Shown here: piece by piece, positions 38,618 to 38,782 of the stretch
How positions within the stretch are numbered: position 1 is the stretch's first letter
Layout: each line of letters begins with the position of its first letter
Source of the DNA: a virus
Strand: one strand, 5' to 3'
IMG/VR virus record: IMGVR_UViG_3300023174_000045
Span: 124,001-188,000 of that record
DNA length: 64,000 nt
Translations under genes and position numbers: made by a program
Notes under the pieces: generated by a model
Told to the model about the DNA's origin: nothing
What the model saw: only the letters and a program-made list of their open reading frames with translations
Database searches by the model: none

Positions 38618-38782
38618 ATGAAACCAAAAAAAGTAAAACAGTATTTTGTTATAGTAGACAAAGATGACACAGTAAAAAGAGTGTGTTGGGCACCTTTACT
38701 GTGGGATATTCCTAACCTGGGATATCGTTTTACAGGATTTGACGGTGGTATTCCAAAGTTTCTTTATGTCGGGCCTGCATAG
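38618..38782 (+). CDS. 54-residue ORF inside the tmRNA intervening segment
   Basis: Starts MKPKKVKQYFVIVDKDDTVK, ends PKFLYVGPA. It begins 13 bases after the CCA of the acceptor piece, and its TAG (38780-38782) lies inside the mature coding piece, so the ORF spans the whole segment normally excised from the precursor. Composition is protein-like (Trp, Cys, hydrophobic core). No clear RBS (AAGAAATTTG). Expression would compete with tmRNA maturation. Confidence 0.5.
   Translation: MKPKKVKQYFVIVDKDDTVKRVCWAPLLWDIPNLGYRFTGFDGGIPKFLYVGPA

Follow-up and report, generated by a model that had tools for sequence, protein, structure and literature searches.

The locus described here raises the question of whether a small open reading frame (ORF) lying between the two pieces of a permuted tmRNA gene is a genuine protein gene, and how its expression might relate to the maturation of the tmRNA around it. 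The DNA comes from IMG/VR record IMGVR_UViG_3300023174_000045, a virus record of 225,080 bases, of which a stretch of 64,000 nucleotides, hereafter the window, was analysed. At 38544-38889 the window contains a permuted (two-piece) tmRNA gene matching Rfam RF04321 (tmRNA_permuted) with 139.8 bits, and ARAGORN reported for the same interval a tmRNA* with the tag ANDEQFALAA, whose reading frame ends in Ala-Ala as expected of a two-piece tmRNA. The acceptor stem spans the intervening segment (IVS): CAGGTCC, which stands before ACCA, pairs with GGGCCTG at 7 of 7 positions. RNase P cuts tmRNA precursors at the mature 5' end and, by extension to these phages, cleavage is expected 5' of GGGCCTG (38771). 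The features are collected in the table below. The gene lies among 34 tRNA genes, all on the same strand within ~11 kb (36504-47726). No convincing promoter was found directly upstream of the tmRNA, and a Rfam scan of the window at gathering level returned no intron family, hence no group I intron, the insert lying after the CCA. We found neither a second IVS copy nor a cassette array in the record, where CCA-plus-IVS start and RF04321 match each occur once. A gene for SmpB was not found in the same 225-kb record, which may be a fragment, so trans-translation would use the SmpB of the host.

Table. Features of the permuted tmRNA locus in the window (positions are those of the window).
Feature	Position	Strand	Basis or remark
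tmRNA acceptor piece (T arm, acceptor-stem 3' strand, CCA 38603-38605)	38544..38605	+	RF04321, ARAGORN
IVS terminal helix, 5' strand (CATAAAGAAATTT), holding the weak SD region	38604..38616	+	MFE of window precursor; covariation (113 dereplicated IVSs)
IVS, 165 nt, exchangeable cassette, predicted absent from mature tmRNA	38606..38770	+	bounded by CCA and 7-bp acceptor stem
54-codon ORF (MKPKKVKQYFVIVDKDDTVKRVCWAPLLWDIPNLGYRFTGFDGGIPKFLYVGPA) filling the IVS, TAG stop in mature coding piece	38618..38782	+	relatives, all in tmRNA IVSs
IVS terminal helix, 3' strand (AAGTTTCTTTATG), also the K-F-L-Y codons of the ORF	38756..38768	+	covariation; compensatory changes in L257
Acceptor-stem 5' strand GGGCCTG; ORF reads Gly-Pro-Ala (part)	38771..38777	+	pairs with CAGGTCC
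tmRNA coding piece to end of tag frame; tag ANDEQFALAA 38857-38889	38771..38889	+	RF04321, ARAGORN
Hairpin resembling an intrinsic terminator, 3' of the tmRNA	38931..38954	+	consensus match; tail without strong T run

The ORF starts with the ATG at 38618, the 13th base after the CCA with 12 bases between them, and its TAG (38780-38782) follows the first 9 nt of the mature coding piece; the IVS ends exactly after codon 51. The initial annotation had described an ORF that fills the IVS with this start and a stop in the coding piece, and its coordinates are all correct. The Shine-Dalgarno (SD) sequence of the window ORF is weak (AAAGAA) and failed a strict SD test, so the reality of the ORF rests on its relatives. 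Twelve further IMG/VR loci, 13 in total, encode it, each between the halves of a permuted tmRNA. Most of these relatives have the SD TAAGGAAATTTGATG; the weaker TAAAGAAATTTGATG is found in the window, L001 and L002, and none in L257. Identity within the family goes down to 63-65% (L257) without a single broken copy, and every indel is in frame, sizes varying by whole codons. The pooled pN/pS was 0.45, and the window compared with L253 gave an omega of 0.15 (Fisher p 3e-4), while the selection test on the window and L257 alone was not significant (p 0.11). The codon-conservation check that had been suggested for this ORF indicates purifying selection, with all 12 relatives intact. The suggested search against phage proteins succeeded in part: it gave the 12 further IMG/VR loci, with no significant match in cultured phages and none in PHROGs or Pfam, nor was a homing endonuclease domain found in the 54-residue protein in these last two collections. 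At the level of sequence comparison, we regard the window ORF as confirmed to be a real protein gene.

The arrangement is not restricted to this family. IMG/VR was scanned with a DNA pattern for the acceptor piece that is blind to the IVS, which gave at least 104 permuted tmRNAs, at least 77 after IVS dereplication. Among the matches listed, an SD-led ATG or GTG ORF spanned the IVS in 17 of the 77 dereplicated IVSs; 0.14 were expected from 200 full IVS shuffles (maximum 2) and 2.1 when both ends were kept and the middle was shuffled (maximum 7). A second pattern, which requires an SD and is therefore biased by design, was used for families and helix only. This enriched set has at least 113 ORF-bearing entries (a few contigs being counted twice) and at least 43 families by blastp clustering of IVS-limited proteins, a count that is approximate since some short TM families may be distantly related. 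Pooled pN/pS was below 1 in all of the 13/14 families where it was computable, and the family with a CxxCxxCC (Cys) motif reached an omega of 0.06 (p 9e-15). The genes usually begin 9-14 nt after the CCA, with the SD in between, and end just before, at or slightly beyond the IVS end. Among the matches listed, the stop lies inside the IVS in 32 of 43 families and in the mature tmRNA in the other 11; the two classes are never mixed within one family, which is no evidence of selection because the class is set by the reading frame. Many freshwater and marine phage contigs carry such genes.

Their products are varied. A thioredoxin of 82-84 aa (PF00085, 75 bits, WCGPC) is encoded in four IVSs (L410, L411, L412 and L419; L278 and L410 are the same contig), and relatives 87-89% identical to it are ordinary genes in L413-L418. 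A protein of 122 aa, intact in 13 IVSs and with a 67% identical relative outside tmRNA in L407, looks GNAT-like in our reading, without Pfam support. Besides these, the cargo includes the CxxCxxCC protein and many TM peptides. Since the 3' strand of the terminal helix encodes -VSL, several IVS proteins share this C-terminus without being related.

We then compared the IVSs with the tmRNA pieces that enclose them. Both halves were at least 85% identical in 273 locus pairs, and in 203 of these pairs, which are not independent, the IVSs were less than 65% identical. The halves of the window and L071 are 94% and 99% identical around different IVS ORFs, and those of L114 and L278 are 100% and 95% identical around a non-coding IVS and the thioredoxin IVS, respectively. 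L092 and L263 differ by 2 mismatches in 7,444 flanking bases and hold entirely different IVS genes, and five IVS states, three coding and two non-coding, occur beside one cold-shock-like gene. In the opposite direction, the IVSs of L403 and L405 are ~100% identical (rounded) over 382 nt between acceptor pieces of 72% and coding pieces of 56% identity, with no detectable similarity of the flanks. The backbones of L003, L398 and L403 have a different, alphaproteobacterial-like T loop (GGGGGCAGTGCCC) and the coding start ACACAGGATCGATTGGG, and contain the same IVS genes as the beta-like backbones. As far as contig sequences tell, these comparisons establish that movement of the IVS from backbone to backbone is independent of both tmRNA halves and neighbouring genes; the simplest guess for the route would be recombination within the conserved tmRNA halves and the IVS borders. 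An ORF resembling HNH endonucleases (phrog_1314) is present in the same phage at 58481-59806 of the window, a possible agent of local recombination without a link to the tmRNA.

The two ends of the IVS are joined by a helix. Its 5' strand consists of the CA of the CCA plus ~11 bases from the start of the IVS, its 3' strand of the last IVS bases; it is ~10-13 bp long, extends the acceptor stem and stops 2 nt short of the mature 5' end; the MFE structure of the window precursor has the 7-bp acceptor stem and a 13-bp helix. Among the matches listed, the pairs covary across the dereplicated IVSs, 49 of ORF type and 64 others, one variable pair being paired in 90% compared to 43% after shuffling, and L257 has compensatory changes (TAAATATA/TATATTTA). 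Duplexes between an IVS's own ends had a mean of -13.9 kcal/mol compared to -6.6 for mismatched ends. The helix is present in IVSs without ORFs too. The SD was fully paired in 41 of 47 IVSs, a pairing that may simply follow from its location in the first IVS bases. In a folding calculation, which is thermodynamic and not kinetic, the SD was predicted to be unpaired with a probability of 0.55 in the nascent RNA lacking the 3' strand and of 0.05 in the complete precursor, with a lower value in 49 of 49 cases; the corresponding values for the window SD were 0.76 and 0.002. The pairing of the start codon was unchanged (0.42 and 0.43). The first G of the SD was wobble-paired in 34 of 43 ORF-type compared to 15 of 46 non-ORF IVSs (p 1.5e-5, inflated by kinship among cassettes).

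As controls, IVSs from bacteria and cultured phages were inspected. No such ORF was found in 23 betaproteobacterial-type IVSs (median 4 nt, maximum 36), nor in another 21 IVSs (median 32 nt, maximum 115) taken from loci that RF04321 matched across Pseudomonadota. For the alphaproteobacterial loci, which have a different T loop, extraction succeeded at 21 of 29. Complementary ends were also seen in many of the alphaproteobacterial IVSs sampled. Six cultured-phage regions (Xanthomonas X1, Mosig, Mendera, CcrRogue, HTVC008M and QDWS359) likewise had IVSs without such an ORF, most of them with visibly complementary ends (judged by eye for HTVC008M). One contig from a bacterial genome did contain an IVS ORF: L229/L358 (Alteromonadales MAG contig CALMJT010000228.1) has 37 codons in a permuted tmRNA behind a doubled SD (TAAGGAAATAAGGAAATCTAATG). 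Though filed as bacterial, it may be phage DNA.

The initial annotation had offered two readings of the ORF. According to one, ribosomes on the precursor would interfere with tmRNA processing and so couple the supply of rescue RNA to translation; the location of the SD region inside the helix that closes the precursor agrees with a conflict of this kind, but near-identical halves around unrelated IVSs (the window and L071, L114 and L278), the very finding that the initial annotation had named as speaking against it, do not support a dedicated coupling of protein to tmRNA, and the window protein is probably not tied to the window tmRNA. The other, a gene parked in the excised segment, fits these pairs better, and to it we add that the slot is recurrent, that its cargo is exchanged and that the processing helix incorporates the SD. 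We propose, with a probability of about 0.68, that these phages use the IVS as an exchangeable slot for a single small gene, translated before helix closure and tmRNA maturation. RNA polymerase would make the SD and the ORF ahead of the 3' strand of the helix, and ribosomes would be able to start on the precursor while it is still being made. After emergence of the 3' strand and clearance of the ribosomes, the helix would close and hide the SD; the closed precursor would fold for RNase P and 3'-end processing, and the IVS would be discarded. The cassette would thus be cargo expressed in the interval before tmRNA maturation. The window holds one such cassette. The coding genes, the cassette behaviour and the SD-bearing helix are established by the comparisons above, and the order of events, co-transcriptional translation followed by helix closure and maturation, is what we infer.

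Two explanations would remove the phenomenon itself. The window frame could be a chance opening in a non-coding IVS, as its weak SD, the non-significant comparison with L257 alone and the occurrence of non-coding IVSs in the same tmRNA type might suggest; with 13 loci, none broken, in-frame indels, a pN/pS of 0.45 and the excess of such ORFs over shuffles, this is extremely unlikely. Even less credit is due to an assembly or binning artefact, in which chimeric contigs would have been joined at the conserved tmRNA halves. These are conserved over ~70 and ~170 nt, enough to mislead assemblers, but in each IVS the two ends pair with each other, independent samples yielded the same IVSs, L263 and L354 are concordant in both IVS and downstream flank, and the ORFs are under selection.

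The remaining explanations accept the genes. If the IVS accepts any insert that keeps the helix, the genes could be cargo without regulation, the overlap of SD and helix being a by-product and translation neither needing nor affecting processing. This agrees with the retention of the helix in non-coding IVSs, with the complementary ends of bacterial IVSs, with the unrelated functions of the cargo and with the free recombination of halves and IVS; the first two observations also count against our proposal, as do the weak window SD, the lack of a convincing promoter just upstream of the tmRNA, and the reliance on thermodynamic folding and metagenomic contigs. The full pairing of the SD and its predicted loss of accessibility in the complete precursor speak against unregulated cargo, and the wobble excess at the first SD G hints at tuned pairing, even if inflated by kinship; we consider it possible but rather improbable. 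For families whose stop lies in the mature tmRNA, a feedback through non-stop messages is also conceivable, in which the RNase P cut removes the stop and the excised IVS becomes a non-stop message whose product is tagged by the tmRNA of the same transcript. All members of the window family read past the IVS end, their stop lying beyond the expected cut, and in the window the cut message would end in frame, right after codon 51. In addition there is a precedent in arfA, which according to PMC10107115 is repressed by trans-translation in E. coli. However, 32 of 43 families stop within the IVS, the stop class follows from the frame and does not require selection, the C-termini of the read-through class vary, and the SD in the excised IVS would remain paired, all of which makes such feedback very unlikely. 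An elaboration of our own proposal would be a self-timed, dual-purpose transcript: the precursor would serve as mRNA first, clearance of ribosomes would let the helix close and release the tmRNA, and in the window-type class maturation would cut off the stop so that any product translated late from the excised IVS would receive the tag of that very tmRNA, and one RNA would yield either protein or rescue RNA but not both. We regard this as speculative and unlikely.

Permuted tmRNA is already known, and genes in discarded RNA segments are already known from introns. ORFs in phage group I introns can have hidden ribosome-binding sites, as in T4 td/I-TevI, which likewise combines an ORF in a discarded RNA segment with an SD paired in the precursor; here there is no ribozyme and no endonuclease, and no ligation follows when the precursor matures into its two pieces. 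Integron gene cassettes carry one small gene per exchangeable unit and share with the IVS genes a fixed slot and flanking pairing sequences, whereas recombination in the conserved tmRNA halves may account for the exchange seen here. The permuted tmRNAs of Alphaproteobacteria, Betaproteobacteria and Cyanobacteria (RF04321) have in common with ours the order acceptor piece-IVS-coding piece, the tag frame, the T arm and the acceptor stem, but the 44 bacterial IVSs sampled are of 3-115 nt without ORF, whereas the phage IVSs described here hold a conserved protein gene. Two-piece tmRNAs of phages, mostly aquatic, are known from the accessible part of PMC9004378 (Pelagibacter phage Mosig, HTVC008M and OM43 phage Melnitz) and are likewise phage-encoded and permuted; in Mosig and HTVC008M the IVS is a short hairpin that holds no ORF, and that part of the paper contains no IVS protein gene that we could find. 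The accessible text of PMC11915505 describes group I introns in tmRNA genes, in some cases accompanied by a homing endonuclease gene. Such tmRNA genes also bear extra, sometimes coding, sequence that is absent from the mature RNA, but that insert is self-splicing and lies in the T loop, whereas here no intron was found and the cargo, not a homing endonuclease, lies between the mature pieces. The same text reports, as a unique feature, a tRNA-Ala inside one permuted tmRNA IVS, again a gene nested in the IVS although a single RNA gene, and the portion of this 2025 tmRNA database paper available to us singles out a tRNA and a repeat among IVS contents and mentions no protein gene. In the open-access literature searched by words, a structured-RNA gene doubling as a slot for exchangeable protein genes was not described. 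Such a slot would explain the long, variable IVSs of phage permuted tmRNAs, bring to light dozens of small phage proteins possibly overlooked by annotation, and offer a natural test bed for the competition between translation and RNA maturation on a single transcript. The swaps, whose borders are fixed, short and conserved, would also be a clear example of genes passing between phages that are otherwise unrelated.

Some minor observations concern the reading of tags and stops. In L034, L040, L137 and similar loci ARAGORN gave very long tags (e.g. ANADTFDFSAMSFTGNTV...), meaning either that the tag frames really are long or that the resume points were misplaced. Few ORFs in the window stop at TAG (6 of 76), and within the tRNA cluster ARAGORN reported at 40544-40622 a tRNA with a CUA anticodon, labelled Pyl, that had no Rfam tRNA match. 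Amber readthrough was considered: with its TAG read as sense, the ORF in the tmRNA would continue as xFRQGNK, which resembles the sense extension QFRQSKE of L006.
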